64,000 nt of DNA from assembly GCF_003594885.1 (NCBI RefSeq), contig NZ_QZEZ01000001.1, positions 496,001-560,000 on the forward strand. Reading direction: 5' to 3'. A program made the translations under genes and the position numbers. Numbering within the stretch: position 1 is the stretch's first letter; each line of letters begins with the position of its first letter. The DNA comes from Vallicoccus soli. GTDB lineage: Bacteria; Actinomycetota; Actinomycetes; Motilibacterales; Motilibacteraceae. Shown piece by piece: positions 13,591-38,573 of this stretch. The notes under the pieces are model-generated. The model searched no databases. It was not told the origin of the DNA and saw only the letters and a program-made list of their open reading frames with translations.

Positions 13591-13745
13591 GACGCGGTTG
13601 CCTCGGCGAGGGACGCCGCCACGACACCGTGACGGCCTCCGTGATCGACGCGGTGGTCGCTGCGCGGGCCCCTGCCGGGCCCCCGACGCGCCCCGCGCGC
13701 CGCCGACCGCCGCCGCACTGCCCGTTCGTCACCCCAGGAGTCACC

Positions 13746-14414
13746 GTGTCCGAGGTCCGCATCGCCGCCGAGCCCCGCACCGAGTTCGGCAAGGGCGCCG
13801 CCCGGCGCATCCGCCGGGACGCGAAGGTGCCCGCCGTGCTCTACGGCCACGGCACCGAGCCGCGCCACATCGCGCTGCCGGGGCACGAGCTCATGCTCGC
13901 CCTGAAGACCCCCAACGTCCTGCTCTCCGTCGACCTCGAGGGCTCGACCGAGCTGGCCCTGCCCAAGGACGTCCAGCGCGACCCCGTCAAGGGCTTCCTC
14001 GAGCACGTCGACCTGGTCCTCGTCCGCCGCGGCGAGAAGGTCGTCGTCGACGTCCCCGTGGAGGTCGGCGGCGAGGCCGAGTCCGGCACGCTCGTCACCG
14101 TCGAGAGCGCCACGCTGCAGGTCGAGGCCGAGGCCACGCACCTGCCGGAGTCGTTCCCGGTCAGCGTGGACGGCCTCGCCGCGGGCACCCAGGTCCTCGC
14201 CGGCCAGGTCGCGCTCCCGGAGGGCACCACGCTCGCCGGCGACCCGGAGGCGGTCGTCGTGCTCGTGGCGGCGGCCCCGACCGCCGAGCAGGTCGACGCC
14301 GAGCTCGCCGAGGCCGAGGCCGGCGCCGGCATCGTCCACGAGGAGAAGGACGCCGACGCGGGCGAGGTCGGCGCCCCCGAGGGCGCGGAGCAGTCCGGCG
14401 ACGCCCAGGGCTGA
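13746..14414 (+). CDS. rplY: 50S ribosomal protein L25/general stress protein Ctc
   Basis: 5S rRNA-binding protein of the long (Ctc/TL5) type, 222 residues. The N-terminal L25 domain has TEFGKGAARRIRRDAKVPAVLYG and the C-terminal beta domain has VDVPVEVGGEAESGTLVTVE and HLPESFPVSVDGLAAG. An acidic Ala/Glu-rich tail of about 40 residues follows. GTG 13746 has CAGGAG upstream and begins the conserved SEVRIAAEPR; an in-frame upstream extension is leader. Followed by a strong hairpin, then pth. Confidence 0.95.
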   Translation: MSEVRIAAEPRTEFGKGAARRIRRDAKVPAVLYGHGTEPRHIALPGHELMLALKTPNVLLSVDLEGSTELALPKDVQRDPVKGFLEHVDLVLVRRGEKVVVDVPVEVGGEAESGTLVTVESATLQVEAEATHLPESFPVSVDGLAAGTQVLAGQVALPEGTTLAGDPEAVVVLVAAAPTAEQVDAELAEAEAGAGIVHEEKDADAGEVGAPEGAEQSGDAQG

Positions 14415-14439
14415 GCCCCCGCACCACCAGCAGCAGCAG

Positions 14440-14478
14440 GCCGCGCGCCCGGTCCCCGCGGGGGGCCGGGCGCGCGGC
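14440..14478 (+). terminator. hairpin between rplY and pth
   Basis: Arms at 14440-14457 and 14462-14478 pair over 17 bp with a single bulged base and a loop of about 4 nt. Confidence 0.5.
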
Positions 14479-14532
14479 GCACCCGGCGGCGGGCCCGGCG
14501 CGCGGGGCGAGCAGGGCGAGGAGGACGAGGAC

Positions 14533-15117
14533 GTGGCGCAGGACAGGTGGGTCGTCATCGGGCTGGGCAACCCCGGCCCGGAGTACGCCGGCACCCGCCA
14601 CAACGTGGGGCACCTCGTCGTCGACGCGCTGGCCGCGCGCGGCGTCGGGCGGCTGTCGCCGTCGCGCCGCACCCGCTCGGACGTCGCGGAGGGGCGCCTC
14701 GGCGGCCCCGGGGGCGTCCCCGTCGTCCTGGCGAGGCCGCGGTCGTACATGAACGAGTCGGGCGGGCCCGGCGCTGCGCTGCGCGACTACTACGACGTGC
14801 CCCCGGAGCGGCTGGTCGTCGTGCACGACGAGCTGGACCTGCCCTTCGGGTCGCTGCGCTGCAAGCTCGGCGGCGGGGACAACGGCCACAACGGGCTGAA
14901 GTCGCTGCGCCGGTCGCTCGGCACGGGCGACTTCCTGCGCGTGCGGGTCGGCATCGGCCGGCCCCCGGGGCGCATGGACCCCGCCACCTACGTCCTGCGC
15001 GACTTCTCCGGCGCCGAGCGCAAGGAGCTGGACCTCGTGGTGGAGACCGCCGCGGACGCGGTGGAGTCACTCTGCGTGGACGGGCTGGAGCGGACGCAGG
15101 CCGCCTTCAACTCCTGA
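14533..15117 (+). CDS. pth: peptidyl-tRNA hydrolase
   Basis: Recycles peptidyl-tRNA released from stalled ribosomes. The 194-residue length is normal. Catalytic signatures are GLGNPGPEYAGTRHNVGH (Asn and His), RSYMNESG, VVHDELDLPFG (Asp), and GDNGHNGLKS. The usual KxGGxxxGHNG loop is changed to KLGGGDNGHNG but the key residues remain. The GTG start has GAGGAGGACGAGG upstream. It is the last gene of the conserved housekeeping order before the polysaccharide genes. Confidence 0.95.
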   Translation: MAQDRWVVIGLGNPGPEYAGTRHNVGHLVVDALAARGVGRLSPSRRTRSDVAEGRLGGPGGVPVVLARPRSYMNESGGPGAALRDYYDVPPERLVVVHDELDLPFGSLRCKLGGGDNGHNGLKSLRRSLGTGDFLRVRVGIGRPPGRMDPATYVLRDFSGAERKELDLVVETAADAVESLCVDGLERTQAAFNS

Positions 15118-15212
15118 GGGGCGCCGGCGCCGGTCGTCGGCACGGAGCGTGATGAGGGAGTGGCGTACGGGTGATGTGGCGCAACCCCCTGTCACCGTCG
15201 CGGGCCCGCCCC

Positions 15213-15218
15213 TAGGAT
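15213..15218 (+). promoter_or_regulatory. -10 box for the initiating glycosyltransferase gene
   Basis: TAGGAT lies 76 nt before the ATG; start near 15226. It opens the polysaccharide region. Confidence 0.45.
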
Positions 15219-15294
15219 GGCGGGGCCGTCGGGCACCGGTCCGGGGAGGGACCCCCGCCCGACGCGCACCGTGAGTGCTGTTCCAGGGGGGGAC

Positions 15295-16773
15295 ATGACG
15301 ATCGTCGACGCCGTGCTGCGCTCGACCGGGTTCCAGCGCCACCGGGGCCCGGGCGACCTGACCGTGGAGCTGCCGCAGCGGCCGCCCTGGCAGGTGGCCT
15401 ACGTCCGCACCGCCGTCGTCGTGGACCTGCTCGTCGGCCTGACGGCCGGCCTCGTCGCGCTGCTCGTGCGCTTCGGCGACGACGCGATCGCGCCGTACGT
15501 CGTGGCGGTCGCCGCGACGCCGTTCCTCTGGGTGGCGACCCTGGGGGTCCACCGGCTCTACGAGCACCGCTTCCTCGGCTCCGGGCCGGAGGAGTTCCGC
15601 CGCCTGCTGAGCAGCGCGGTGCACCTCGGCGCCGTGGTCGCGGTGCTGGCCTACGCCACGAAGACCGAGGTCGCCCGCGGCTTCCTCGGCCTGGCGCTGC
15701 CCACGGCCCTCGTGCTGGGCCTCGCCGCGCGCTACGCGCTGCGCCTGCGGCTGCACCGGGCCCGCCGCGCGGGCCGCGGCATGCAGCGCGTCGTCGCCGC
15801 CGGCCACGCCGCGGACGTCGTGCGCCTCGTGGACCAGCTGGCCCTCGAGCCGTCGCACGGGCTGCAGGTCGTCGGCGCCTGCCTGCCGCAGAGCGGGCAG
15901 GTCGACGTGCTCCTGAGCCGCGGCATCCCCGCCGTCGGGGGCTTCGACAACGTGCTGCGCACCGTGCGCCTGTGCGGCGCCGACACCGTCGCCGTCGTGT
16001 CGAGCCCGGAGCTGGCCGGCGAGGAGCTGCGCCGCCTCAGCTGGAAGCTGGAGTCGAGCGGCACCTCGCTCATCGTCGCGCCGGGCCTGGTCGAGGTCGC
16101 CGGGCCGCGCCTGTCGATCCGCCCGGCGGCCGGGCTGAGCCTGCTGCACGTCGAGCACCCGCGGCTCTCCGGCGGCCGGCGCATCGCCAAGTCCGCGCTC
16201 GACCGCGGCCTCGCCGCCGCGGCCCTGCTGCTGCTGTCGCCGCTGCTGCTGGCCGTGGCCGTGGTGGTGGCGCTGACGAGCCCGGGCCCGGCCGTCTACC
16301 GCCAGCGCCGCGTGGGCGTCGGCGGTCGCGAGTTCACGATGTACAAGTTCCGCACGATGTACCGCGACGCCGACGCCCGGCGCGCGGCGCTGCTCGCCCG
16401 CAACGAGGGCAACGACGTGCTGTTCAAGATGCGCAACGACCCGCGGGTCACCCGGGCCGGGCGCTTCCTGCGGCGCTACTCCCTCGACGAGCTGCCCCAG
16501 CTGCTCAACGTGCTCCTGGGGCACATGGCGCTCGTCGGGCCGCGCCCGCCGCTGCCGGAGGAGGTCGCGCAGTACCCGGAGGAGGCGCACCGCCGGCTCC
16601 TCGTGCGCCCCGGGCTCACGGGCCTGTGGCAGGTGTCCGGGCGCTCGGACCTGTCGTGGGAGGAGTCCCTGCGGCTCGACCTGCGCTACGTCGACAACTG
16701 GTCCCTCGCGCTCGACGTGCTCATCCTCTGGAAGACCGGGCGCGCCGTCGTCCGCGGCTCCGGCGCCTACTGA
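15295..16773 (+). CDS. polyprenyl glycosylphosphotransferase (initiating sugar transferase, WbaP/CpsE-like)
   Basis: Transfers a sugar-1-phosphate to undecaprenyl phosphate, the first membrane step of polysaccharide assembly. In 492 residues it has four predicted N-terminal membrane helices (about 30-165), a Rossmann-like middle domain (about 165-290), another membrane segment (about 300-325), and the bacterial sugar transferase catalytic domain. The latter shows MYKFRTM near 350, DELPQLLNVLLGHM near 398, LVGPRPPLPEE and RPGLTGLWQVSGRSD. ATG 15295 is chosen because CAGGGGGG precedes it. It is the only such enzyme here, so it probably starts the repeat unit. Confidence 0.93.
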   Translation: MTIVDAVLRSTGFQRHRGPGDLTVELPQRPPWQVAYVRTAVVVDLLVGLTAGLVALLVRFGDDAIAPYVVAVAATPFLWVATLGVHRLYEHRFLGSGPEEFRRLLSSAVHLGAVVAVLAYATKTEVARGFLGLALPTALVLGLAARYALRLRLHRARRAGRGMQRVVAAGHAADVVRLVDQLALEPSHGLQVVGACLPQSGQVDVLLSRGIPAVGGFDNVLRTVRLCGADTVAVVSSPELAGEELRRLSWKLESSGTSLIVAPGLVEVAGPRLSIRPAAGLSLLHVEHPRLSGGRRIAKSALDRGLAAAALLLLSPLLLAVAVVVALTSPGPAVYRQRRVGVGGREFTMYKFRTMYRDADARRAALLARNEGNDVLFKMRNDPRVTRAGRFLRRYSLDELPQLLNVLLGHMALVGPRPPLPEEVAQYPEEAHRRLLVRPGLTGLWQVSGRSDLSWEESLRLDLRYVDNWSLALDVLILWKTGRAVVRGSGAY

Positions 16774-16976: not shown

Positions 16977-19004
16977 ATGGGGGACGACGGGGCGAGGAGC
17001 GCCCGGGCGGCGCTCGACGACGGGGTGGCGCGGGCGCTGGACCTGGCGCTGGACGAGGCGCGGGGCCAGGAGCAGCCGCCGGCGCGGCTGTGCTTGCGCC
17101 TGGCCCGCCTGCACGCCGACGCCGGCGACGCGGCGGGGGCGCTGCGCTGGTGCGCCGCGGTCGTGGACGCGGGGGAGGACCTCGCGAGCTGGACGGCCGC
17201 CTCGGCGGTGCTGGCGCGCGTGCTGCCGGAGGTGGGTCCGCTGCCGCGCTCCGCGCGGGTGGCGGTGCTCGGCAGCTCGACGACGAGCCAGCTCGCCGCG
17301 CTGCTGCCGCTGGCGCTGGCGCGCGCGGGGGTGGCGGCGGAGGTCTACGAGTCGGGCTACGGGCAGTACCAGCAGGAGGTGCTCGACCCGACGAGCGGGC
17401 TGCACCGCTTCGGCCCCGACGTCGTCGTGGTCGTCCCGGACGAGACCCAGCTGCACCTGCCGGAGCACAGCGACGAGCCGGTCGCGGCCGTCGACGCGGA
17501 GGTGGAGCGCTGGAGCCGGCTGTGGCACCGCGTGCGGGCCGCGACGGGGGCGCGGGTGGTCCAGCTGACCGTCCCGGTGCCGGTGGACCAGGCCCTCGGG
17601 CACCTGGGGCTGCGGGTGGCGGGGAGCCGCTACCGGATGCGCCTGCTGCTCGACCTGCGCCTGGCCGACGCCGCGGCGCAGGCCGGCGTGGCCCTGGTGG
17701 ACTGCGGCCGGCTGGCGGCGCGGGTGGGGGCGGACCGCTGGTCCGACGCCCGGCTGTGGCACGTGGCCAAGCAGGCGGTCGGCCTGTCGGTCGTGCCGCT
17801 GCTCGCCCGGCACGTCGCGGCGGTCGTCGCGGCCGAGCTGGGCCGGGGCCGCAAGTGCCTCGTCCTCGACCTCGACGGCACCGTCTGGGGCGGCGTCCTC
17901 GGCGAGGACGGGCTGGGCGGCATCGCGCTCGGCGACGGGCCGGCGGGCGAGGCGTTCGCCGCGTTCCAGGAGTACGCCCTGGCGCTGGAGGCGCGCGGCG
18001 TGGTGCTCGCGGTGTGCTCGAAGAACGACGAGGAGCTCGTGCGCGAGGCGTTCCGGGTGCACCCGGGCATGCGCCTCACGCTCGAGCGCATCGCCGTGCT
18101 CTCCGCCGGCTGGGACGACAAGCCCGCGCAGCTGCGGCGCATCGCGCAGGTCCTCGGGCTCGGGCTCGACGCGCTCGTCCTGGTCGACGACAACCCGGTC
18201 GAGCGCGAGGCCGTGCGCCAGCTCGTCCCCGAGGTCGACGTGGTCTGCCTGCCGCCCGACCCGGCCGACTACGTGCGCGCGCTCGCGGACTACCCGTGGT
18301 TCGAGGCGCCGGCGCTCACCCAGGACGACCGCCGCCGCACCGAGCAGTACCGGGCCCGCGCCGAGGTCGCCGCCCTGCAGGAGAGCGCGAGCAGCCTCGA
18401 CGACTTCTACCGCAGCCTCGTCATGGCCGCGCGGGTCGTCGAGGTCGACGACCTCGTGCTGCCGCGGGTGGCGCAGCTCGTCGGCAAGACCAACCAGTTC
18501 AACCTGACCGGCCGCCGCCGCGGGCTCGCCGAGCTGCGGGCGCTGGCCGGGGACCCGGCGTGGGAGGTCCTGGCGGTCCGGCTCAGCGACCGCTTCACCG
18601 ACCACGGCGTCGTCGGGGTGCTGCTGCTCGAGCAGCGCGGCGGCGCGCTGCACGTGGACACCTGGCTCATGAGCTGCCGGGTCATCGGCCGCACGCTCGA
18701 GGACGAGATGCTCGGGCTGGTGCTGGCGGCCGCCGGGGAGCGGGGCTGCGACGAGGTCGTGGGCTCGTACGTCCCCTCCCGGCGGAACGGCCTCGTGGCG
18801 GGGCTGTACGAGCGGCTCGGCTTCTCCCGCGCGGGGGCCGGGGCGCCGGGACCGGGTCCGGGCGGGCCGGCGCAGGACGGTACGGCCCGCTGGGTCCTGC
18901 GGGTGGCGGGGGCGCGGGCGGGACGAGGGTTCATCGAGGTGCAGGACGAGCGGCGCCGGCCCGTGCGGGCCGGGGCCGGGGGACGCGAGGGGGCGCACGG
19001 ATGA
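16977..19004 (+). CDS. HAD-IIIC family (FkbH-like) protein
   Basis: FkbH-type enzymes take a glyceryl group from 1,3-bisphosphoglycerate, dephosphorylate it and load it on an acyl carrier protein. The 675-residue protein has an N-terminal helical and SGNH-like part (VAVLGSSTTSQLAALLPLAL), the HAD domain with LVLDLDGTVWGGVLGEDG (nucleophile Asp near 298), VCSKNDEELV and LVDDNPVERE, and a C-terminal GNAT-like region ending NGLVAGLYERLGF. ATG 16977 has GAGGGGGG upstream. It overlaps the ACP gene by ATGA. The actual acyl group is inferred from the family, not shown. Confidence 0.9.
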   Translation: MGDDGARSARAALDDGVARALDLALDEARGQEQPPARLCLRLARLHADAGDAAGALRWCAAVVDAGEDLASWTAASAVLARVLPEVGPLPRSARVAVLGSSTTSQLAALLPLALARAGVAAEVYESGYGQYQQEVLDPTSGLHRFGPDVVVVVPDETQLHLPEHSDEPVAAVDAEVERWSRLWHRVRAATGARVVQLTVPVPVDQALGHLGLRVAGSRYRMRLLLDLRLADAAAQAGVALVDCGRLAARVGADRWSDARLWHVAKQAVGLSVVPLLARHVAAVVAAELGRGRKCLVLDLDGTVWGGVLGEDGLGGIALGDGPAGEAFAAFQEYALALEARGVVLAVCSKNDEELVREAFRVHPGMRLTLERIAVLSAGWDDKPAQLRRIAQVLGLGLDALVLVDDNPVEREAVRQLVPEVDVVCLPPDPADYVRALADYPWFEAPALTQDDRRRTEQYRARAEVAALQESASSLDDFYRSLVMAARVVEVDDLVLPRVAQLVGKTNQFNLTGRRRGLAELRALAGDPAWEVLAVRLSDRFTDHGVVGVLLLEQRGGALHVDTWLMSCRVIGRTLEDEMLGLVLAAAGERGCDEVVGSYVPSRRNGLVAGLYERLGFSRAGAGAPGPGPGGPAQDGTARWVLRVAGARAGRGFIEVQDERRRPVRAGAGGREGAHG

Positions 19005-19237
19005 TCGACGAGCGGCTGCAGCAGGTGTTCCGGGACGTGCTGGGCGACCAGGGGCTCGAGCTGAGCGAGGGGACGACGGCGCGCGACGTGGAGGGCTGGG
19101 ACAGCCTGGCGCACATCAACCTCATGGTGAGCGTGGAGGGCGAGTTCGGGGTGAGCTTCACCAGCGCGCAGCTCACCGCGTTCCAGGACGTGGGCGCGCT
19201 GCAGCGGTTCCTCACCGAGCGGGGGGCGCTCGCGTGA
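19001..19237 (+). CDS. acyl carrier protein
   Basis: 78-residue discrete carrier protein. The phosphopantetheine site is GWDSLAHINLM, with the attachment Ser at residue 35. Downstream VEGEFGVSFTSAQLTAF is the usual helix II-III region. It is overlapped at both ends (ATGA with FkbH-like, GTGA with the acyltransferase), so the three are translated together. It would hold the acyl group loaded by the FkbH-like protein. Confidence 0.93.
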   Translation: MIDERLQQVFRDVLGDQGLELSEGTTARDVEGWDSLAHINLMVSVEGEFGVSFTSAQLTAFQDVGALQRFLTERGALA

Positions 19238-19854
19238 CCGCGCTCACCGAGGGCCGCGGGTCGTCGGGCGCGCCCGCCGAGGGTGCGCCGGGGGAGGCCG
19301 AGCAGGGGGCGGCCGCGCAGGGTGCGGTGTCCACGGCGCCGCTGCGGGTGCTGCTGCGCGAGGACCTGCGCACGCACGGGCGGCTCTCGCACCCGGGGCT
19401 GCACGTGCTGGCGGTGTACCGGGTGGGGCACTGGCGCCGCTCCCAGCCCGCGCTGGTGCGCAAGCCGGTCTCGGCGCTCTACAAGCTCGTGGACCGCTGG
19501 GTGGTGCGCACGCTCTACGGCACGGAGATCTCGGACCGGGCGCGCATCGGGCGGCAGGTGAAGATCGGGCACCACCAGGCCCTCATGGTGCCGGCGGGCT
19601 CGGAGATCGGGGACGGCTGCCTGCTGCGCCAGGGGGTGAGCATCGGCTACGCCCGGGACGGCGCCCCGGCCGGTGCGGTGCCGCGGCTCGGCCGCCGGGT
19701 CGAGGTCGGGCCGCACTCGGTGATCATCGGGCCGATCACGATCGGGGACGACGTGAAGATCGGGCCGCTCTCGCTGGTCTCGCGCAGCGTGCCGGCGGGG
19801 GCGACGGTGTTCTCCGCGCCGGCGCGGGTGATGCCGGCGCCGCCGCGGGGCTGA
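19234..19854 (+). CDS. serine O-acetyltransferase-like hexapeptide acyltransferase
   Basis: Left-handed beta-helix acyltransferase of 206 residues. After a variable Ala/Gly/Glu-rich N-terminus comes LLREDLRTHGRLSHPGLHVLAVYRVGHW, typical of CysE-like proteins, then imperfect hexapeptides (ISDRARIGRQVKIGHHQAL, IGDGCLLRQGVSIG, IGPITIGDDVKIGPLS). Coupled directly behind an ACP and an FkbH-like loader, it is better explained as the enzyme that moves the ACP-bound acyl group to a sugar than as a cysteine-pathway enzyme. That role is inference. Confidence 0.85.
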   Translation: MTALTEGRGSSGAPAEGAPGEAEQGAAAQGAVSTAPLRVLLREDLRTHGRLSHPGLHVLAVYRVGHWRRSQPALVRKPVSALYKLVDRWVVRTLYGTEISDRARIGRQVKIGHHQALMVPAGSEIGDGCLLRQGVSIGYARDGAPAGAVPRLGRRVEVGPHSVIIGPITIGDDVKIGPLSLVSRSVPAGATVFSAPARVMPAPPRG

Positions 19855-19962: not shown

Positions 19963-21246
19963 TCAGCCGAGCCCGGCCTGCTCCTCGCGCAGCCGGTCGA
20001 CGAGGCGGCCCTCGGGCACCGCCACGTCGGCGTAGGTGAGGACCTCGTCCTTGCCCACGTCGCGCAGCAGCCGGCAGCCCTCGGCGAGCCCGAGGGGGAG
20101 CAGACCGCCCTCGCGCGTCGCCGCGGCCGTCTCGGCCTGCCCGTAGCTGTGGTAGCCGCCGAGCGCGTCGAGCACCGTGCCGGCCGCGAGGTCGGTCTTG
20201 GCCGTGGTGACCACCTCGACGCGCGCAGCGCCGGGAGCCGCGAGGACCGTGTCGCCGAAGTCCACCGCGCGCACGATGCTGTTCGGCACCTCGAAGTGGC
20301 AGAGGTGGTAGGGCGTGTAGAACGAGTAGAGCGGGCCCTTGCCGAGCTTGTAGAGCTCGAGGTAGTGCCGCTGCTTCGGATCGTCGTGCGTGGCCAGGAC
20401 GAAGACGCCGGGAGAGGGCTTGCTGCCCACGACGTAGTCCACGACGCCGCCGAGCGCGCGCAGCTCGTCCACGTCGTAGCGGTCGACCAGCTCGTCGACG
20501 TGCCCGTCGTGGTCCCAGCCGTTCATCCCGCGCTTCGGCACCGTGAAGCCCGCGGCGTTGGCCACGATCGCCTGCTCGAAGGAGATCTTCGTGCCGTCGG
20601 CGAAGCTGGTGACCATCCACGGGTCCTGGCCCCACCGCTCGGCGAAGCCCTTCTGCGTCGTCGGGGTGCGGTACGGGTCCTGCAGCCCCTTGATGTTGCC
20701 GGCGACGAGGGGGGTGCAGCCGATGCCCTGCACGAAGCGCAGCAGGTTCATCTGCACGCCCGGCTGGTCGCCGTCGCTGCCGGTGAACACGACCCCGGCC
20801 TTGCGGGCCCGCTCGGCGAGCACGGGGCCGACCGTCCCGTCGAGCTCGGCGTTGAGGGTCACCAGCGGCTTGCCGGCGTCGATGGCGGCGACCGAGAGGC
20901 GGGCGCCGTACTCGACCGCGCCGGTGACGTCGACGAGGCAGTCGACGAGCCCGGCCCCGACGAGGGCCATCGGGTCCTCGGTGACGACGGGCGTGCCGCG
21001 CTCGATCGCGCGCTGCACCCCCGCCGCGTCGTCGGCGACCACGACGCCGTCGACGCCGGCCTCGGCGTACGCCCGCTCGGCCTTGTCCCGGTGCCGGTTC
21101 GCCACGGCGGACAGCGTCATCCCGGGGACGCTGTTCACGATCTGGTTGGCCAGGCCCCGGCCCATGAAGCCGGCCCCGACCATGCCCACGCGCAGCGGCC
21201 GGCCCTCCGCGACCCGGCGCCGCAGGGCCTCGTCGACGAGGATCAC
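19963..21246 (-). CDS. NAD(P)-dependent oxidoreductase with C-terminal SAF domain
   Basis: 427 residues. The N-terminal Rossmann fold has LRVGMVGAGFMGRGLANQI (residues 18-36), related to homoserine dehydrogenase-type oxidoreductases, with LVDVTGAVEYGARL and LVTLNAELDGTVGP. The C-terminal part (KTDLAAGTVLDALGGYHSYG onward) resembles a SAF domain. Such proteins occur in carbohydrate clusters, but the substrate is not established. GTG 21246 overlaps the RmlC-like stop by GTGA, placing it last in an operon with the epimerase and RmlC-like gene. It probably alters a CDP-activated sugar. Confidence 0.85.
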   Translation of the reverse strand: MILVDEALRRRVAEGRPLRVGMVGAGFMGRGLANQIVNSVPGMTLSAVANRHRDKAERAYAEAGVDGVVVADDAAGVQRAIERGTPVVTEDPMALVGAGLVDCLVDVTGAVEYGARLSVAAIDAGKPLVTLNAELDGTVGPVLAERARKAGVVFTGSDGDQPGVQMNLLRFVQGIGCTPLVAGNIKGLQDPYRTPTTQKGFAERWGQDPWMVTSFADGTKISFEQAIVANAAGFTVPKRGMNGWDHDGHVDELVDRYDVDELRALGGVVDYVVGSKPSPGVFVLATHDDPKQRHYLELYKLGKGPLYSFYTPYHLCHFEVPNSIVRAVDFGDTVLAAPGAARVEVVTTAKTDLAAGTVLDALGGYHSYGQAETAAATREGGLLPLGLAEGCRLLRDVGKDEVLTYADVAVPEGRLVDRLREEQAGLG

Positions 21247-21803
21247 GCCGCGCCCCCCGCGGGAGCGGCCGCGGTCTCGCCGAGCAGCGCCCAGGAGCGG
21301 TCCTTCTCGGAGACGACGCTCACCGGGACCGGCCAGTCGATGCCCAGGGCCGGGTCGTCGTGGCGCAGGCCGCGCTCGGTGCCGGGCGTGTAGGCGGCGC
21401 TCACCTGGTACACGACCTCGGCGCCGTCCACCAGGGTGAGGTAGCCGTGCGCGAACAGCGGCGGCACGTACAGCGCCCTGCGGTTGTCGGCCGTCAGCTC
21501 GACCGCGACGTGGCGCAGGTACGTGGGGGACTCCGGGCGCATGTCGACGATGACGTCGACGATCGCGCCGCGCGTGCACCGCACGAGCTTGGCCTCGGGC
21601 GCCGGCTCGACCTGGTAGTGCATGCCGCGCAGGGTGCCCGCGCGGTGGTTGTAGGACAGGTTGCACTGCTCCACCAGCGGCTCGAGGCCCGCGGCCTCGA
21701 ACTCGCTGCGGCAGAAGGTGCGGGCGAAGAAGCCGCGCTCGTCCTCGCGCAGCTCGAGCTCGACGACGGCGGCGCCGGGGAGCTCGGTGGGGGTGATGAT
21801 CAC
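21243..21803 (-). CDS. dTDP-4-dehydrorhamnose 3,5-epimerase-like protein (RmlC family)
   Basis: Cupin epimerase of 186 residues acting on NDP-4-keto-sugars. Visible are RGFFARTF, the catalytic His in LRGMHYQ (His62), CTRGAIVDVIVDMRPESPTY, the HGYLTL segment, and VVYQVSAAYTPGTERG holding the conserved Tyr, then IDWP. There is no rmlA, rmlB or rmlD in the window. Its partners are a cytidylyltransferase and an epimerase/dehydratase, so a CDP-sugar substrate is more likely than dTDP-rhamnose. The GTG start overlaps the upstream stop by GTGA. Confidence 0.88.
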   Translation of the reverse strand: MIITPTELPGAAVVELELREDERGFFARTFCRSEFEAAGLEPLVEQCNLSYNHRAGTLRGMHYQVEPAPEAKLVRCTRGAIVDVIVDMRPESPTYLRHVAVELTADNRRALYVPPLFAHGYLTLVDGAEVVYQVSAAYTPGTERGLRHDDPALGIDWPVPVSVVSEKDRSWALLGETAAAPAGGAA

Positions 21804-22825
21804 GGGGCCGTCCAGTAGAGCTGGTCGTCGAGCTGGCGCGTGCGCATGAGGTGCTCGAGCTGCTTCAGGCGCGTGTGGCCGCGGCCGGTGAAGGTCTCCG
21901 CGTCCATGCCGATGCGCTCGAAGACGGCGCGCAGCTGGCGGGCGCCGGAGAGGGCGTCCCACTCGCAGGAGAACCCGGGCAGCACCTTGTGGATCTTGTC
22001 GAAGCTCACCTTGTAGCTGCGGTTGTCCGCTCCGGCCTCGCCGAAGGAGAGCTCGCAGCCGGTGAACACCTCGGCGACGGTCTCGGCGATCTCCTTGACC
22101 TGGTAGTTCTGCTCGTTGCTGCCGACGTTGAAGACCTCGCCGTGCACCACGTCGCGGTCCGCGGCGAGGACGCAGCGGATCGCCTTCGCGATGTCGAGGC
22201 CGTGCACGAGCGGGCGCCACGGGGTGCCGTCGCTCGTCATGGCGATGCGCCCCGTCGTCCAGGCCAGGCCCGAGAGGTTGTTGAGCACGATGTCGAACCG
22301 CATGCGCGGCGAGGCGCCGAAGGCGGTGGCGTTGCGCAGGAACGTCGGCGAGAAGGAGTCGTCGGCCAGCGCCGAGACGTCGCGCTCGACGTACTGCTTG
22401 CAGTAGGCGTAGGCCGTCTGGGGATTCGTGGGCGAGGTCTCGTCCACCTCGCCGTCGGCGACGCCGTACACGCTGCAGGAGGACATGTAGACGAAGCGCT
22501 GCACGCCCGCGTCCTTGGCCAGCTGGGCCAGGCGCACCGAGCCGGCGTGGTTGATGTCGTAGGTGACCTCGCCGATGAGGTCGCCCAGCGGGTCGTTCGA
22601 CAGCTCCGCCATGTGGACCACGGCGTCGACGCCCTCGAGGTCCTCCGGGCCGATCCGGCGGATGTCCTTGGCCAGCGTGCGCGGCGTCGCGGGGACCCCG
22701 TCGTAGAGCCACCCGTTCTTGTAGTAGCCCGTGTCCACGCCGAGCACGTCGTGCCCCTCGGCCATGAGCGTCGGCGCCAGCAGGCAGCCGAGGTAGCCCT
22801 CGGTCCCCGTGACCAGGATCTTCAT
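21800..22825 (-). CDS. NAD-dependent epimerase/dehydratase (extended SDR)
   Basis: Sugar-nucleotide epimerase or dehydratase of 341 residues. The N-terminal nucleotide loop is KILVTGTEGYLG (residues 2-13); the active site has SSCSVYG and the YxxxK pair in AYAYCK. The C-terminal part is typical of UDP-glucose 4-epimerase relatives. ATG 22825 is preferred to ATG 22834 because GAGGGG then sits 9 nt upstream. It is first in a leftward operon divergent from rfbF and may act on CDP-glucose. No separate CDP-glucose 4,6-dehydratase was found here. Confidence 0.88.
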   Translation of the reverse strand: MKILVTGTEGYLGCLLAPTLMAEGHDVLGVDTGYYKNGWLYDGVPATPRTLAKDIRRIGPEDLEGVDAVVHMAELSNDPLGDLIGEVTYDINHAGSVRLAQLAKDAGVQRFVYMSSCSVYGVADGEVDETSPTNPQTAYAYCKQYVERDVSALADDSFSPTFLRNATAFGASPRMRFDIVLNNLSGLAWTTGRIAMTSDGTPWRPLVHGLDIAKAIRCVLAADRDVVHGEVFNVGSNEQNYQVKEIAETVAEVFTGCELSFGEAGADNRSYKVSFDKIHKVLPGFSCEWDALSGARQLRAVFERIGMDAETFTGRGHTRLKQLEHLMRTRQLDDQLYWTAP

Positions 22826-22896
22826 CTGCCCCATCCCCTCGCCCCCGGGCGACCGGGTCAACGGCAGACCCGTCCCGTCCCCCCTGGGCGTGCACG

Positions 22897-23070: not shown

Positions 23071-23919
23071 ATGGACGGCACCACGACGACCCCGGGCGCA
23101 GCCGACCGGCTGCTCGACCCGAAGGACATCCCCGTGGTGATCCTGTGCGGGGGCATGGGGACCCGGCTGCGCGAGGCGAGCGAGAAGCTGCCCAAGCCGC
23201 TGGTCGACATCGGCGGCAAGCCGATCCTGTGGCACGTCATGAAGACGTACAGCCACCACGGCTACCGGCGCTTCGTGCTCGCGCTGGGCTACAAGAGCGA
23301 CCTCATCAAGCGGTGGTTCCTCGACCTGCGCGAGCAGACGAGCGACTTCACGCTCACCCTCGGCGGCGACCACCGCCCGGTGTTCCACACCGGCGCGGAC
23401 GTCGAGGAGGACTGGGAGGTGACGTTCGTCGAGACCGGGCTGCTCAGCGGGACCGGTGCGCGGATCCGGCGCGTGGCGCCGTACCTCAAGAGCGACGTCT
23501 TCGCCCTCACCTACGGCGACGGCATCGGCGACGTGGACCTCACCGCGCAGCTGCGCCACCACGTCGAGCTGGGGCGGGCCGCCACGGTGACCGGCGTGCA
23601 CCCCACGAGCCGCTTCGGCGAGATCCGCGTCGACGACGCGGCCTCGCGGGTCGTCGAGTTCAACGAGAAGCCCGCGGCCGCCGGCTGGGTCAGCGGCGGG
23701 TTCTTCCTCTTCCAGCGCTCGTTCGTCGACGACTACGTCTCGGACGACCCGGGCCTCATGCTCGAGGCGGCGCCGCTGCAGCAGGTGGCCCGCGACGGCC
23801 AGCTCTCGGTGTTCCCGCACGAGGGCTTCTGGGCGGGCATGGACACCTTCCGCGACTGGACCGACCTCAACGCCCGCTGGGACGCGGGGAAGGCGCCGTG
23901 GAAGGTGTGGGACGCCTGA
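23071..23919 (+). CDS. rfbF: glucose-1-phosphate cytidylyltransferase
   Basis: Makes CDP-glucose from CTP and glucose 1-phosphate, the entry to CDP-deoxy and branched sugars. The 282 residues include the nucleotide loop ILCGGMGTRLREASEKLPKP (starting at residue 24), DIGGKPILWH, the RfbF-typical HHGYRRFVLALGYKSDLIK, LTYGDGIGDVD for metal binding, and EGFWAGMDTFRD near the end. The ATG has GGAGGGGGA upstream. It is divergent from the epimerase / RmlC-like / oxidoreductase operon, which likely uses its product. Its last 53 bp overlap the 3' end of the convergent gene. Confidence 0.93.
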   Translation: MDGTTTTPGAADRLLDPKDIPVVILCGGMGTRLREASEKLPKPLVDIGGKPILWHVMKTYSHHGYRRFVLALGYKSDLIKRWFLDLREQTSDFTLTLGGDHRPVFHTGADVEEDWEVTFVETGLLSGTGARIRRVAPYLKSDVFALTYGDGIGDVDLTAQLRHHVELGRAATVTGVHPTSRFGEIRVDDAASRVVEFNEKPAAAGWVSGGFFLFQRSFVDDYVSDDPGLMLEAAPLQQVARDGQLSVFPHEGFWAGMDTFRDWTDLNARWDAGKAPWKVWDA

Positions 23920-24904
23920 GGTCGACCGCACGGTCGGGGTCGAGGGGGCGGGCCGCCGCGGCGGCGCCGCCCCCTGCGGCGTCCGGGGTGCTCGAGGTGC
24001 TCGAGGTGCCCTGGGTGCCCGCGACCCAGCGCGCCCGGTGGGCGGCGCGCTCCTCGTCGCTCCAGAAGTGCCGCGCGTAGCGCGAGCCGTACATCCGGTC
24101 GAGGTAGTCCCCGTCGAGGGTCAGTCGGCGCTCCACGGCGCGGTACGCGTCGGCGTAGTCCTTGCCGCTGCTGACGTTGCGGCTCGCGAGCCGCACGCCG
24201 GGCAGGCCGAGGAAGGCCTCGACGGCCTCGCCGAAGCAGCGCCCGAGGTCCTCGTAGCGCAGCACGAGCACGTCGGCCCGCTCGCCGCGCAGCACCGCCC
24301 AGCCGCGCTCGCGGGGGAACGGCGCGCTCCAGGGGTCGACGCCGAACGGGACCGCCAGCTCCGCGTCCACCCAGCGCACGGGGCCCTCGTGGTCGTCGAA
24401 GCGCTCGAGGAAGAGCGCGCGCACGGCGTCGACGACCTCGTCCTCGGAGCGGTCCCGCGCGAGCTCGCCGAGGTCGAGGCCGTACCGCGAGCGGGCGACC
24501 TGGAAGAAGCTCGAGACGTTGCGCGCGACGGGGTCGCGCACGACGGTGACCACCTGCCAGCGCCGCTGGGGCTCGCGGGCCAGGCGCCCGGCGACCCACT
24601 GGCCCTGCCAGAGGTGCTGCGCCCCGCGGTGGCCGGGGTCCCAGCGCCGCGCGTAGCTCGCCTCGAGCGCCGCGAGGCCGGCCGGCGAGACCGCGTGGAC
24701 CTGGTAGACGGGGTCCAGGCCCGCCTCCTGCAGCGACGCCGTCACCGAGGACGAGGCGACCTTGCCCATCTGGTGGACGAGCAGCGGCTGGGGCCGCCCC
24801 CGGCGCCGGCGCGCCAGGCGCAGGCGCGTGCGCGCCTTCGCGGCCTCGTACGCGGCGCGGCGCCGGAGCGCGGCCGAACCTGCCGCAGCGTGAGGGTCGC
24901 TCAT
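23867..24904 (-). CDS. putative capsular polysaccharide synthesis protein (sulfotransferase-like)
   Basis: 345 residues related to the family annotated as putative capsular polysaccharide synthesis protein, which looks like a divergent sulfotransferase. The P-loop-like segment is HQMGKVASSSVTASL (residues 44-58), followed by VVRDPVARNVSSFFQ (the likely 3'-phosphate-binding part), LRYEDLGR and FLGLPGV. The C-terminal tail is low-complexity and overlaps rfbF on the other strand. ATG 24904 overlaps the upstream glycosyltransferase stop by ATGA. A sulfuryl-transfer role is inference, helped by the other sulfotransferases nearby. Confidence 0.8.
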   Translation of the reverse strand: MSDPHAAAGSAALRRRAAYEAAKARTRLRLARRRRGRPQPLLVHQMGKVASSSVTASLQEAGLDPVYQVHAVSPAGLAALEASYARRWDPGHRGAQHLWQGQWVAGRLAREPQRRWQVVTVVRDPVARNVSSFFQVARSRYGLDLGELARDRSEDEVVDAVRALFLERFDDHEGPVRWVDAELAVPFGVDPWSAPFPRERGWAVLRGERADVLVLRYEDLGRCFGEAVEAFLGLPGVRLASRNVSSGKDYADAYRAVERRLTLDGDYLDRMYGSRYARHFWSDEERAAHRARWVAGTQGTSSTSSTPDAAGGGAAAAARPLDPDRAVDLRRPTPSTAPSPRPSGR

Positions 24905-26126: not shown

Positions 26127-27842
26127 GTGACTGCGTACGACAGCCGCACCGACTCCGACCAGGAGCCGGCGCCCGCCACGACCTTCTCCCTGCGCGAGCT
26201 GTGGCGGCGCCGCGCCGTCGTGGCCGGCGCGCTCGTCGCGACGGTCCTCGTCGCGGTCGCGCTGACCCTGGTGCAGGGCAAGACCTACCGGGCCAGCGCC
26301 GACGTGCGGGTCTCCTCGGGCAACCTGCAGAGCATCTTCGGGCCGCAGCAGAACGGCGACACCGCCACGCTGCTGGCCACGCAGGTGAGCGTGCTCGAGT
26401 CGACGCAGATGCGCGCCGACGTCGAGGAGCGCCTCGGTGACGGCGTCGAGGTGCTCGACGTGCTCGTCGAGGGGGTGCCGGAGAGCCAGGTCGCCACGGT
26501 CACCGTCGACGCCACCACCGCCCAGGGCGCGGCCGACGCCGCCAACGCGTACGTGCTGGCGTACAAGGACCGGCGCGACCTCGCGGCCGGGACCGAGGCG
26601 CAGCGCCGGGCCGACGCCCTGCAGGAGCAGGTGGCCGAGCTGGAGGGCGAGCTCGCGGTCGCGCAGCGCGAGGTGGACGCGGAGTCGACCCGCATCAACC
26701 TGCAGCTCGCCGAGATCACCGTGGCGCGCGACCGGGCGGCGGCGTCCGGCATCGCGCTCGACCCGGCCGAGGTGGCGTCGCCGACCACGGCCACGTTCAC
26801 GGCGCTGCAGGCGCGCTACAACGACGTCGCCGGCCGGCTCGCCGACCTGCGCGCGACGCAGCAGCAGTACGAGGTCGCCGCGCAGCTGCGCGAGGGCGGC
26901 GCCGCGGTGATCTCGACCGCGACCCCGCCGACGAAGGCCGCCTCGCCGAACCTCGGGCAGACCGTCCTGCTCGCCGCGCTGCTCGGCCTGGCGCTCGGCA
27001 TCGCGCTGGCGCTGCTCCTGGCGGCGCGCGACCGGCGGCTGCACGACCGCGACGGCGTCGCCCGCGCGGACCTCGGCGCCCCCGTCGTCGGCACCGTCGC
27101 GGGCTCCCCGGCGCGCGTGGACGCGGTCGACCTCAGCACCGCCTCGGCCGGCCCGGTGAAGGCCGGCGAGGACTACGTCGCCCTCGCCTCGCAGGTCCTC
27201 GTGGCCGCGCGCCGGCGCGACCTCTCCCGCCTGCTCGTGACGAGCGCCGCGGGGGAGGACGGCAAGGCCGGCGTCGCGGCCGGGCTCGCCGTCGGCCTCG
27301 CCTCGCTCGGCCAGCGCGTCGCCCTCGTCGAGGCCGACCTGCGCGCCGGCGGCAAGGGCGTGCGCGAGGACGGCCCCGTCGGGCTCTGCGAGGTCATCAG
27401 CGGCACCGCGACGGTCGCCCAGGCGCTGCTGCCCGTACGGGTGCAGGGGACCGGCTCGCTCGTGGTGCTCCCCGCCGGCCGGGGCGGCGTCGAGCCGACC
27501 CAGGCCCTGACCAGCGAGCCCGCGGCCCGCGCCCTGCAGGACGTCGCCGCCGACGTGGACCTCCTCGTCGTCGTCGGCGCCCCGCTGCTGCCCGTCGCGG
27601 ACTCGATGGTGCTGCTGCCCTACGTCGACAGCGCGCTGCTCACCGTGCAGCTCGGCGACACCACGAGCACCGACGTGCGCGCCGCCCTCGACCGGGTGTC
27701 GGCCATCGACGGCGGGGTCCTCGGCCTCGTGCTGCGCGGGCGCCGCGACGCCGGTCGCCCGGCGGCCGTCCTCAGCCGGGGCGCGGCCCCCGCCCGCGGT
27801 GCGGCGCCCGCCGCGCCCGCGGTGCCCGCCGCCCGGGACTGA
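26127..27842 (+). CDS. Wzz/BY-kinase-like polysaccharide co-polymerase with degenerate P-loop
   Basis: 571 residues. An N-terminal Wzz domain has membrane helices at about 31-51 and 272-295 enclosing a coiled-coil-like extracytoplasmic region. The C-terminal cytoplasmic domain resembles bacterial tyrosine kinases, but the Walker A position reads SAAGEDGKAG (Lys kept, no Ser/Thr), the A' motif is VALVEADLR, and the Walker B region lacks the usual Asp-Thr-Pro-Pro. No C-terminal tyrosine cluster is present. Probably a chain-length regulator with weak or no kinase activity. GTG 26127 has GAGGGA upstream. A strong terminator follows. Confidence 0.88.
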   Translation: MTAYDSRTDSDQEPAPATTFSLRELWRRRAVVAGALVATVLVAVALTLVQGKTYRASADVRVSSGNLQSIFGPQQNGDTATLLATQVSVLESTQMRADVEERLGDGVEVLDVLVEGVPESQVATVTVDATTAQGAADAANAYVLAYKDRRDLAAGTEAQRRADALQEQVAELEGELAVAQREVDAESTRINLQLAEITVARDRAAASGIALDPAEVASPTTATFTALQARYNDVAGRLADLRATQQQYEVAAQLREGGAAVISTATPPTKAASPNLGQTVLLAALLGLALGIALALLLAARDRRLHDRDGVARADLGAPVVGTVAGSPARVDAVDLSTASAGPVKAGEDYVALASQVLVAARRRDLSRLLVTSAAGEDGKAGVAAGLAVGLASLGQRVALVEADLRAGGKGVREDGPVGLCEVISGTATVAQALLPVRVQGTGSLVVLPAGRGGVEPTQALTSEPAARALQDVAADVDLLVVVGAPLLPVADSMVLLPYVDSALLTVQLGDTTSTDVRAALDRVSAIDGGVLGLVLRGRRDAGRPAAVLSRGAAPARGAAPAAPAVPAARD

Positions 27843-29194: not shown

Positions 29195-30426
29195 GCGCCG
29201 CGCCCGGACGCCCCGGCGGGGGCGCCCGGACCCTCGGCCGCGTCCTGGCCGCCGGCAGTGCCCGGCGCGGTGAGCCCGAGGACGCCCGCGAGCTGCTCGA
29301 CGCGCCGGTCCCAGGAGTGCTGCGCGGCGAAGGCGCGGCGGCGGGCCACGAGCGCCTCGTCGCGCGGCGTCGCGAGCGCGCGGGCGACCGCGTCGGCGAA
29401 CGCCTGGCGGCCCGTCGTGAGCTCGGTGAGGTCGGTGCCGAGCCAGCGCACCGAGGGCAGGTCGTTCGCGACGACGGGCAGCCCGGCGGAGAGGTAGTCG
29501 AGGACCTTGAGCGGGAAGCTCGCCCGGTTGAACGGGCTGTCGGTGTAGGGGACGAGCCCGACGTCGACGTGGCGCAGGTAGGACGGCACCTCGTGGTGGC
29601 GCTTGGGCCCCACCCACTGCACGTTGGGCCGGGCGAAGATCCGGTCCAGCGCCGCGTGCGGCGCGGCCTCCGAGCGGGGCCCGACGAGCAGCACCGAGTG
29701 GCCGGCCTCGGCCACGGCCTCGAGCAGGTCGGCGTCGGTGCGCTCGTTGAGCGTGCCGATGAAGCCGGCCACCGGTCGCCGCAGGGTGACCTCGGGGGCG
29801 GGGACCGCGGTGTCGGTGCCCGCGAAGAGGTCGTAGTCGCAGCCGTTGGTCATGAGCACCGGGTCGTGCCCGAGCGCGCGCCACTTCTCCTCGAGGACCG
29901 GCGACACGGCGACGACGCGGTCCGCGCGGCGCGACACCTCGCGCTCGCGGCCCCGGACCCACCGCACGGCGACGTCGTTGAGCTGCGCCCCCGCCACGAA
30001 GTCGTCGGAGGCCAGGTGCACCGACACCCGCTCACCGAGGGTGCCCAGGACCGGGAAGTGCGGTGGCACCTGCACGACGGCGGCCACGTCGCCGCCGAGC
30101 GCGCGCACGGCGCGGCGCACCTGGTGGCGGAAGGACGCCGTCGCGACGGTGCGCATGCCGGGGCGCGTCTTGGCCGGGGGCACGACGACGGTCAGGCGGG
30201 CGAGGCGGTCCTGCAGCAGGCGCAGGCGGGGCTCCTGGTGGCTCTGCGCCATCCAGGGCTTGCGGAGCGTGGATAGCGGTGTCCGCGGCGGGTCGACGTA
30301 GAGCACCGGCGCGTAGCGCGTGAGCCGCTCGGCGATGTGCTGGGCCCCCAGCCGGTTGCCCTCCCAGGTGACGCCCGCGACGAGGACCACCATGCCCCGC
30401 CAGTCGCCGGCCAGACCGTTGCCCAT
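29191..30426 (-). CDS. glycosyltransferase (GT-B fold)
   Basis: 411 residues. It begins MVVLVAGVTWEGNRLGAQHI near residue 12, includes VHLASDDFVAGAQL and RRADRVVAVSPVLEEKW, and has C-terminal donor features VAGFIGTLNERTDADLL, VGLVPYTDSPFNRASFPLK and VLDYLSAGLPVVANDLPSV. The pattern matches UDP-sugar-type glycosyltransferases (GT1/GT4-like) seen in exopolysaccharide clusters. ATG 30426 is used; AGGGGGAG lies about 10 nt upstream. A TACCGT box at 30512-30517 is a likely promoter. Confidence 0.88.
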   Translation of the reverse strand: MGNGLAGDWRGMVVLVAGVTWEGNRLGAQHIAERLTRYAPVLYVDPPRTPLSTLRKPWMAQSHQEPRLRLLQDRLARLTVVVPPAKTRPGMRTVATASFRHQVRRAVRALGGDVAAVVQVPPHFPVLGTLGERVSVHLASDDFVAGAQLNDVAVRWVRGREREVSRRADRVVAVSPVLEEKWRALGHDPVLMTNGCDYDLFAGTDTAVPAPEVTLRRPVAGFIGTLNERTDADLLEAVAEAGHSVLLVGPRSEAAPHAALDRIFARPNVQWVGPKRHHEVPSYLRHVDVGLVPYTDSPFNRASFPLKVLDYLSAGLPVVANDLPSVRWLGTDLTELTTGRQAFADAVARALATPRDEALVARRRAFAAQHSWDRRVEQLAGVLGLTAPGTAGGQDAAEGPGAPAGASGRGA

Positions 30427-30511
30427 CGTGCGGTGCTCCCCCTCGCGTCCGGCGCAGCGGGGCCCACGGCCGGCCGCCGTCGCCACTGCGGCGCCCCCTG
30501 CCGTCCCGACG

Positions 30512-30517
30512 ACGGTA
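30512..30517 (-). promoter_or_regulatory. -10 box of the glycosyltransferase pair
   Basis: Minus-strand TACCGT gives a start near 30505 and a leader of about 80 nt. Confidence 0.35.
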
Positions 30518-30580
30518 GCAGCGGCGCCCCCGGCCGAGGGCTGGTTGCGCGGACTCCCGGCACCGGGGGCCCGGCGCGGG

Positions 30581-30586
30581 TACCGT
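30581..30586 (+). promoter_or_regulatory. -10 box of the beta-helix gene
   Basis: TACCGT, identical to the divergent box 64 bp away; start near 30593. Confidence 0.35.
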
Positions 30587-30719
30587 GGCGGCAGCCCCGC
30601 GGGCGCCCCCGGGGGGCGCGGGCCCCGCCGGGGGTCCGACGCGCGCCCCAGCACGGCACCAGCGCGCACCGGCACGGGACCAGCCCGGGCCCGGCACGCA
30701 CCAGCCAGGACGGACGGAC

Positions 30720-30794
30720 ATGCCAGCCGCTGCCTCGAACCGCCCCGGAGCGGGCCCCGCCCCGCGCCCCGCGACCCCCTGCGGGACGCGCTGA
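30720..30794 (+). CDS. possible 24-residue leader peptide
   Basis: ATG preceded by AGGACGG; a Pro/Ala/Arg-rich peptide ending PCGTR whose TGA overlaps the beta-helix ATG as TGATG. This could couple translation of the next gene. No homology is claimed; it may be chance in a high-GC leader. Confidence 0.3.
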   Translation: MPAAASNRPGAGPAPRPATPCGTR

Positions 30795-32452
30795 TGGGGG
30801 GGTACGACGACTCGGTGCCCGGCCGCCCCGGCCCGGGGTCCCCGGGATCTCCCGGGTCCTCGGGGTCCCCGGGGTCCGCGCGCGCTGCGGGCGGCGCCGG
30901 CGGCGGTGCCCGCGCACCCCGCGGCGGCGGCCCCGGCCCGTCCCGGCGCTCGCTGCTCGTGGCCGCCGGCGGGCTCGGCCTGGCCGGGGTGGGCGGGGCG
31001 GTGCTGTGGCGCTCCCTCGGCGACGACGGCCCCGGTGGTGCCGCGGCCGGGCCGGCGCCCCGCACCCCCGCGCCGTCGCAGACGCCGTCGCCCGTCACCG
31101 GTGCGGACGACGCCTCGCCCGAGCTGCAGGGCCTGCTGGACGCCGGCGACGCCCGCGTGGTGCTCCCCGAGGGCAGCCACGTCCTGCGCTCGGGGCTCGT
31201 GGTGCCGCCGCACGTGCGCGAGATCGAGGTCCCGGAGGGGACCGTGCTCACGATGGCCGGGGACGAGGTGCTCCTGCGCCGCAACGGGCGCATCGAGCAG
31301 CAGCCCCGGCAGGTGGTCACGGCGGTGCAGGGCGCCGACGCGGTCCGCCTCGCCGACGTGTCGGGCATCCGCGCCGGGGCCTGGGTCTACCTGTGCAGCG
31401 ACGACTGGCTCAAGGAGGGCAAGAGCAAGCGCGGCATGCTGCGCCGCGTCGAGGCCGTCGAGGGCGACCTGCTGCGCGTCGACAAGCCGCTCATCAGCAG
31501 CCTGTCGACGGCCCCGCGCGCGCACGTCGTCGCGCTCGCGCCGTCGCTCGCGCTGACCGGCGCCGGCGCCCTGGAGAACGCGGACCCGCAGGGCACGTTC
31601 TCCAACCTCGTGCGCCTGGACTTCGTGGAGTCGCCCGAGGTCGCCGGGGTCGAGCTGCGCTTCTGCGGCAGCGCGGCCCTGCGCACCTTCGGCACGGTCG
31701 GCGGCACCATCGACGCGTACATCCACGACTGCGTCGACGACCAGGGCCGCAACCACTACGGGTACGGCGTCAGCTGCACCTCCACGACACGGGACCTGCG
31801 CGTCCTCGGCCGCATCGAGCGGGTGCGCCACGCCTTCACCACCGACCACGGGTACGACGCCCTCGTCGAGTCGATCGCGCAGACCGGCGAGCCCGAGGAC
31901 ATCTACGTGGCCCCGCGGGTGCGCGAGACGTCCTCGACCGGGATCGACACCCACGAGCCGGGGGACGGCATCACCATCGTCCCCGACATCGAGGGCTGCG
32001 GGACGATGAAGTGGGGCGGCATGAACGTCCGCGCCCGCAACGTGACGATCCAGGGCGGGACCGTCCGCGACTCCAACGAGTGGGGGATCTTCGTGCAGCC
32101 GAGCGCCGGCGGCACGACGGTGATCCGCGACGTCGAGGTGTCGGGGGTCCGCGACGGCCGGGGCGTGCACTGCAAGGCGGGCGCCCGCATCGAGGGCGGC
32201 AGCGTCTCCGGCTTCGGCGACCGCTTCGGCATCCACATCGAGCCCGGGACCACGGTGGACGTCGAGGGCACCCGCATCGACGGCGGCCAGGCCGACGGCT
32301 CCCGTGGGATAGCGCTTGCTGGCACGTCGTGCAGCCTCACCGGGACGGTCGCGAACTGCTCGGTCGGCGTCCTGGAGCTCCCGGACGCGTCCGACAACCG
32401 CGTCCTGCTCGACTACGACAACGTGGCGCGCGAGGTCATCAGCGCCACCTGA
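30794..32452 (+). CDS. secreted right-handed beta-helix protein (Tat-type signal)
   Basis: 552 residues. A long N-region with five Gly-Ser-X triplets precedes SRRSLLVAAGGLGLAGVGGA (about 50-69), a twin-arginine-type signal or anchor. After a Pro/Thr linker comes a pectate-lyase-like beta-helix: LPEGSHVLRSGLVVPPHVRE, repeated turn segments, HYGYGVSC, HAFTTDHGYD and SSTGIDTHEPGDG. It is a paralogue of the gene at 40308-41846. Such proteins often cleave or modify polysaccharide, but no catalytic residues can be assigned. ATG 30794 has only a weak ribosome binding site. Confidence 0.85.
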   Translation: MGGYDDSVPGRPGPGSPGSPGSSGSPGSARAAGGAGGGARAPRGGGPGPSRRSLLVAAGGLGLAGVGGAVLWRSLGDDGPGGAAAGPAPRTPAPSQTPSPVTGADDASPELQGLLDAGDARVVLPEGSHVLRSGLVVPPHVREIEVPEGTVLTMAGDEVLLRRNGRIEQQPRQVVTAVQGADAVRLADVSGIRAGAWVYLCSDDWLKEGKSKRGMLRRVEAVEGDLLRVDKPLISSLSTAPRAHVVALAPSLALTGAGALENADPQGTFSNLVRLDFVESPEVAGVELRFCGSAALRTFGTVGGTIDAYIHDCVDDQGRNHYGYGVSCTSTTRDLRVLGRIERVRHAFTTDHGYDALVESIAQTGEPEDIYVAPRVRETSSTGIDTHEPGDGITIVPDIEGCGTMKWGGMNVRARNVTIQGGTVRDSNEWGIFVQPSAGGTTVIRDVEVSGVRDGRGVHCKAGARIEGGSVSGFGDRFGIHIEPGTTVDVEGTRIDGGQADGSRGIALAGTSCSLTGTVANCSVGVLELPDASDNRVLLDYDNVAREVISAT

Positions 32453-38362: not shown

Positions 38363-38573
38363 GGGGTCCTCCTGCGGGGTCGTCGGCCGCGCCGCGGAGG
38401 AGCCCGCGGGGCGTCGTACGGGGGACGTCGTCGACCACGCGCCCCCCGGCGGCAGCGAGTCTTGCAGCGCGACGGGGGGCAGTGCCACCGCTTCGGCGCA
38501 AGTCACACGCACGGACCACGGTGCGTGCCGGAGGGCGCACAGCGGGTCGGTGACGCGGGGGTCGTACGGCCCC

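Follow-up and report, generated by a model that had tools for sequence, protein, structure and literature searches.

Three overlapping genes of the actinobacterium Vallicoccus soli, which encode an FkbH protein, a stand-alone acyl carrier protein (ACP), and a hexapeptide acyltransferase (HEX), form a real and conserved unit, most likely a cassette that decorates a polysaccharide by glyceryl transfer and builds on known FkbH-ACP chemistry. The trio lies on the plus strand at positions 16977-19854 of a 64,000-nucleotide stretch of this high-GC genome, hereafter the window (NZ_QZEZ01000001.1, positions 496,001-560,000; assembly GCF_003594885.1, a draft of 20 contigs that is 98.6% complete). We consider it probable that the trio is a cassette for glyceryl decoration, belonging to a locus for a surface or extracellular polysaccharide, the substrate, the cysteine intermediate, the acceptor, and the linkage being the parts of this reading that we infer. 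The three genes are as follows:

16977-19004, plus strand: FkbH of the HAD-IIIC phosphatase/acyltransferase type, 675 aa (TIGR01686; Pfam FkbH_N)
19001-19237, plus strand: stand-alone ACP, 78 aa (PF00550)
19234-19854, plus strand: hexapeptide (left-handed beta-helix) acyltransferase, HEX, 206 aa (PF00132)

All three genes are coupled by start/stop overlaps, namely ATGA at 19001-19004 between FkbH and the ACP and GTGA at 19234-19237 between the ACP and HEX. Both the coordinates and the overlaps of the original prediction are thereby confirmed, and the identities that it gave to the three products are borne out by the family matches listed above. The FkbH protein, the only one in the genome, scores 282.3 bits against TIGR01686 (cut-off 146.65) and comprises an extra N-terminal helical domain (residues ~1-88), an FkbH_N domain (94-284), a HAD domain, and a GNAT-like C-terminal domain. 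Its predicted structure (pLDDT 89), in which both the extra helical domain and the GNAT-like part are apparent, matches the FkbH-like structure 3slr from B. fragilis. In an alignment of 21 diverse FkbHs, the HAD residues D298, D300, D404, and D405, together with K382, are invariant, as is C567, which lies in the motif MSCR of the C-terminal GNAT-like domain. The cysteine of the CSKND motif was also considered as the acyl-holding residue and was ruled out because it varies among the same 21 proteins, whereas C567 is constant. The ACP, a member of its family at 30.6 bits against PF00550 (cut-off 20.8), has a predicted phosphopantetheine attachment site at Ser35 of a WDSL motif, and the solved structure closest to it, at 47 bits, is 2lml, labelled a putative acyl carrier protein, which we take to be GmACP3 of Geobacter metallireducens. 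One ACP synthase gene (ACPS family) is present in the genome.

FkbH proteins are known from polyketide assembly. In tetronate pathways, formation of a glyceryl group from 1,3-bisphosphoglycerate by FkbH and an ACP has been proposed (PMC7489565), and FkbH-like proteins acting with a stand-alone ACP have been assigned the formation of glyceryl-ACP from the same intermediate (PMC7489565, PMC13122637). By analogy with these FkbH proteins of other pathways, from which the glyceryl nature of the acyl group is taken, the FkbH of the trio would draw D-glycerate from glycolytic 1,3-bisphosphoglycerate, with the HAD domain stripping a phosphate and the invariant cysteine of the C-terminal GNAT-like domain probably carrying the acyl group, after which the neighboring ACP would take up the glyceryl group on its phosphopantetheine arm. 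HEX, acting in the cytoplasm, would in turn use this charged ACP to acylate a hydroxyl (or amino) group on a sugar, the acceptor being a nucleotide sugar or a lipid-linked repeat unit, and the decorated unit would be flipped and polymerized by the Wzx/Wzy proteins of the locus. The glyceryl group is expected to be unmodified, since the neighbor genes scanned include no family of methoxymalonyl-type dehydrogenases or O-methyltransferases that would modify it, and an ester linkage is weakly favored because no aminotransferase family occurs among those genes.

The first body of evidence for a joint function is the conservation of the trio. When the window FkbH was scanned against 394 Actinomycetes genomes, its relatives formed two separate sets, a near set confined to the Vallicoccus soli genome and Frankiaceae-type genomes (f18) and a far set with identities of about 40% or less. 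An ACP and a HEX stand beside FkbH, within about 1.5 kb, in all 25 near-set loci fetched (FkbH at least 53% identical; one locus per genome, that is, the window and 24 Frankiaceae at 53-65% FkbH identity), and they do so in none of the five divergent far-set loci fetched. The same two neighbors beside every one of these close FkbH relatives make the trio more than a chance neighborhood. Three gene orders occur, FkbH-ACP-HEX, HEX-FkbH-ACP, and an arrangement with HEX and the ACP on the opposite strand, and because the linkage outlasts this reordering, it argues for a joint function. A named genome scan added further Frankia loci as well as the order HEX-FkbH-ACP in one Acidobacteriota, one Nitrospira (Nitrospirota), and one Acidimicrobiia genome, the occurrences beyond Actinomycetota coming from one genome-collection scan and comprising few loci, mostly metagenome-assembled.

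The second body of evidence is the setting. Upstream, the gene order runs glmU, prs, rplY, pth, and then the priming sugar transferase with which the locus begins. The following genes flank the trio:

15217-16773, plus strand: priming polyprenyl-phosphate sugar transferase (EPS_sugtrans), start of the locus (TIGR03025, 408 bits against 295.6; Pfam Bac_transf)
19963-21267 (start codon approximate), minus strand: DXR-like (DRL) oxidoreductase with a SAF domain (Pfam DRL_cat, 179 bits)
21243-21803, minus strand: RmlC-type sugar-nucleotide 3,5-epimerase (TIGR01221, 173 bits, over the cut-off)
21800-22837, minus strand: SDR epimerase/dehydratase (Pfam Epimerase)
23071-23919, plus strand: glucose-1-phosphate cytidylyltransferase-like nucleotidyltransferase (TIGR02623, 271 bits, just below the cut-off of 300)

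Downstream of the trio, the sugar-nucleotide genes are accompanied by glycosyltransferases, a Wzz/tyrosine kinase, Wzy, Wzx, and sulfotransferases, and the components of a Wzx/Wzy-type locus are all present, with the priming transferase at 15217-16773, a chain-length regulator at 26127-27842, a polymerase at 35763-38540, and a flippase at 38574-40097. The polysaccharide cluster in which the trio had been placed from a first reading of the DNA is thus real, as judged by its flanking priming, sugar-nucleotide, glycosyltransferase, and Wzz/Wzy/Wzx genes. The DRL oxidoreductase is probably a sugar-precursor gene; its homologue in a relative of the same family, G004, is 69% identical and adjoins SDR and RmlC homologues. 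In several Frankia, an RmlC-type gene adjoins the trio too, as does an SDR homologue of about 75% identity.

FkbH is absent from four same-family genomes, each of which has homologues of the window polysaccharide genes no more than 20 kb from pth; G004 carries homologues of the priming transferase, cytidylyltransferase, SDR, RmlC, and DRL genes without FkbH. Since all four relatives have polysaccharide genes close to this site but lack the trio, the trio is an optional cassette, and this fits a decoration module added to a pre-existing polysaccharide pathway. The SDR, RmlC, cytidylyltransferase, and DRL genes were also considered as makers of the acyl group and are unlikely in that role, because G004 has them without the trio. 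Polysaccharide genes are found near rplY-pth in Vallicoccus soli (window 13629-16773) and its family relatives, and two Frankia-type loci likewise have the trio in the vicinity of pth (the loci outside the window being L024, L076, and L136-L139), as if the rplY-pth region were a recurrent site of variable polysaccharide loci.

The third body of evidence comes from a tree of 62 FkbHs, in which the context labels are our own reading of the neighbor genes. The trio FkbHs fall on one branch (support 100/99), which also holds a Chloroflexota FkbH whose ACP precedes a different hexapeptide protein and one FkbH from a short contig on which no HEX was found. A larger branch (95/98) encloses the trio branch together with FkbH-ACP pairs, most of which adjoin an MBOAT or a WcbI acyltransferase, the former in L033, L034, S. 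meliloti, and a Rhodobacteraceae plasmid, and the latter, a WcbI-type polysaccharide acetyltransferase, in Niveispirillum. Outside this larger branch fall four of the five polyketide-labelled FkbHs; the fifth, from a polyketide-like locus of Streptomyces lincolnensis (L035), is placed close to the glycan side, a position that is moderately supported. A FabH-FkbH-ACP gene set is present in comparison plasmids. Taken together, the comparative data favor acyl decoration of a sugar, because the trio is conserved, its FkbHs form a separate clade, the acyltransferases are swapped in other glycan loci, and the trio is optional.

The member of the trio that invites a different interpretation is HEX. 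It matches PF00132 at 46 bits, with hexapeptide repeats and a catalytic His, and its predicted structure (pLDDT 81) is well modelled except for the first 31 residues; the PDB matches listed for this model are all serine acetyltransferases, and the fold is CysE-like. With CysE, EpsC, and WcaB it has in common the fold and one catalytic His, His113 being aligned with H158 of CysE and thus kept. It differs in missing every family cut-off (66-76 bits against the EpsC, WcaB, and CysE models, with 69.2 bits against the CysE model TIGR01172, cut-off 210.65) and in lacking the CysE serine-site residues D157, R192, and H193, whose places are taken by Gly112, Ala148, and Val149. In one trio (L025), His113 is replaced by Asn. 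As the best-scoring families use acetyl-CoA, HEX might be an ordinary acetyl-CoA-dependent polysaccharide O-acetyltransferase, with FkbH and the ACP feeding glyceryl-ACP to another acyltransferase. A HEX homologue in an actinobacterial polysaccharide locus (G238, L070:8741-9226; 203 bits, 44% identical) points the same way: no FkbH or ACP homologues were detected around it, so that relatives of HEX may use acetyl-CoA. For the trio itself we hold this explanation to be unlikely, because the three-gene linkage withstands changes of gene order in all 25 genomes and in three further lineages, a different hexapeptide protein occupies the HEX position in the Chloroflexota locus, and the CysE serine-site residues are missing.

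The nature of the acyl group admits another alternative, in which FkbHs of the trio clade would load some other phosphorylated acid, the decoration then being something other than glyceryl and the ACP-to-sugar logic remaining unchanged. The clade stands apart from most polyketide-type FkbHs, the protein bears the extra N-terminal helical domain, and no characterized member of the clade was found; against these points stand the invariance of the HAD motif and of the C-terminal Cys and the finding that, among the genes scanned beside the trio, none is recognizable as a producer of an unusual acyl substrate, and we accordingly judge this alternative to be quite improbable.

That the trio should be a small secondary-metabolite pathway of the tetronate or methoxymalonyl type, placed by chance in a polysaccharide locus, would be very surprising. 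The FkbH roles proposed in the literature (PMC7489565, PMC13122637) do belong to such pathways, but the neighbors of the trio clade are hexapeptide transferases and sugar genes, and the families of FabH-like proteins, Agg4/Agg5 homologues, acyl-CoA dehydrogenases, and O-methyltransferases are absent among the neighbor genes scanned. The polyketide synthase whose absence had been claimed from the sequence was indeed not found in the genome, as far as it was searched: the ketoacyl-synthase search returned a single complete match (181 bits), the remainder being fragments below 27 bits, alongside the single FkbH. With no such genes found by the neighbor scan or by this genome search, we reject a polyketide or tetronate pathway. 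Hardly any credence attaches to HEX being the serine acetyltransferase of the genome, located by chance near the sulfur genes of the window, since, although no CysE above the family cut-off was found in Vallicoccus soli (where HEX scores highest, at 69 bits), none lies above it in the same-family genomes searched, four in number, either, a true CysE (~245 bits) exists in two Frankiaceae genomes in addition to a separate trio HEX (84-86 bits), and this coexistence, together with the unconserved D157, R192, and H193, leads us to reject the role.

The glyceryl-decoration reading can be set against several known systems. With the FkbH-ACP pairs of tetronate and methoxymalonyl pathways, the trio shares the adjacent stand-alone ACP, the HAD motif, the C-terminal Cys, and the proposed glyceryl-ACP product; it differs in that no partner of the polyketide synthase, FabH-like, or dehydrogenase type is recognized, in its hexapeptide partner within a polysaccharide locus, and in its separate clade in the tree. 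In the Dlt system, the D-alanyl carrier protein DltC and the MBOAT protein DltB decorate an envelope polymer. A small acyl group is thus likewise held on a carrier protein for an envelope polymer, and the FkbH-ACP-MBOAT variants found elsewhere are paralleled, but Dlt relies on an adenylation enzyme rather than FkbH, and the acyltransferase of the trio is a soluble hexapeptide protein. A dedicated ACP and a hexapeptide acyltransferase are also paired in the O-antigen pathway of Flavobacterium psychrophilum, where the PglD-type enzyme WfpG is predicted to move an acyl group from the ACP WfpD to a nucleotide sugar of a surface polymer (PMC6519341); there the group is dihydroxyhexanoyl, of a predicted fatty-acid-type origin rather than from FkbH, and the acceptor is an amino sugar. 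In Campylobacter jejuni, a surface sugar that bears a glyceroyl group has been reported from mass spectrometry and NMR, as dimethylglyceroyl-pseudaminic acid on flagellin (PMC3068675); this case differs in being a protein glycan with an amide link and O-methylation, and in that the glyceroyl-transfer enzymes are unproven. In the open-access literature we found no description of a polysaccharide FkbH-ACP-HEX cassette and nothing on FkbH with O-antigen or capsule, and FkbH with exopolysaccharide received an incidental mention only.

A broader proposal, to which we give slightly less than even credence, is that glyceryl-ACP from glycolysis is a widespread and unrecognized acyl donor for bacterial surface polysaccharides, with one FkbH-ACP module serving interchangeable transferases (CysE-like or other hexapeptide proteins, MBOAT, and WcbI) across several phyla, and that FkbH may commonly work in glycan decoration. 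If this is true, a glycolytic intermediate would directly supply the acyl decoration of cell-surface polymers in several phyla. Because the cassette names donor, carrier, and transferase together, it opens the source of the glycerate on bacterial glycans to direct testing, and it also provides a rule by which genes annotated as "HAD-IIIC family phosphatase" in polysaccharide loci could be re-annotated, including one on a symbiotic plasmid of Sinorhizobium meliloti.

Several further observations concern these loci. The pSymB-type plasmids of Sinorhizobium meliloti (L119 and L120) carry MBOAT, ACP, and FkbH genes, with capsular polysaccharide export genes a few kb away in L120, and in an Omnitrophota locus (L036:2686-11120) FkbH-ACP is followed by a MaoC/SDR fusion within a nonulosonic acid cluster (PseB-like, NeuB). 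The window itself has, in the same region as the trio, genes for two sulfotransferases and a capsular-polysaccharide NKWYS-domain protein as well as CysQ-like and CysN-like genes, at 23867-24840, 32514-33398, and 37286-38512 on the minus strand and 42853-45871 on the plus strand. Together they suggest that the polymer of the locus is also sulfated. Weak beta-helix or pectate-lyase-like matches, below the Pfam cut-offs, were seen in the polysaccharide locus at 30320-32452 (plus strand) and 40308-41846 (minus strand), and their products are possibly polymer-acting or surface proteins.
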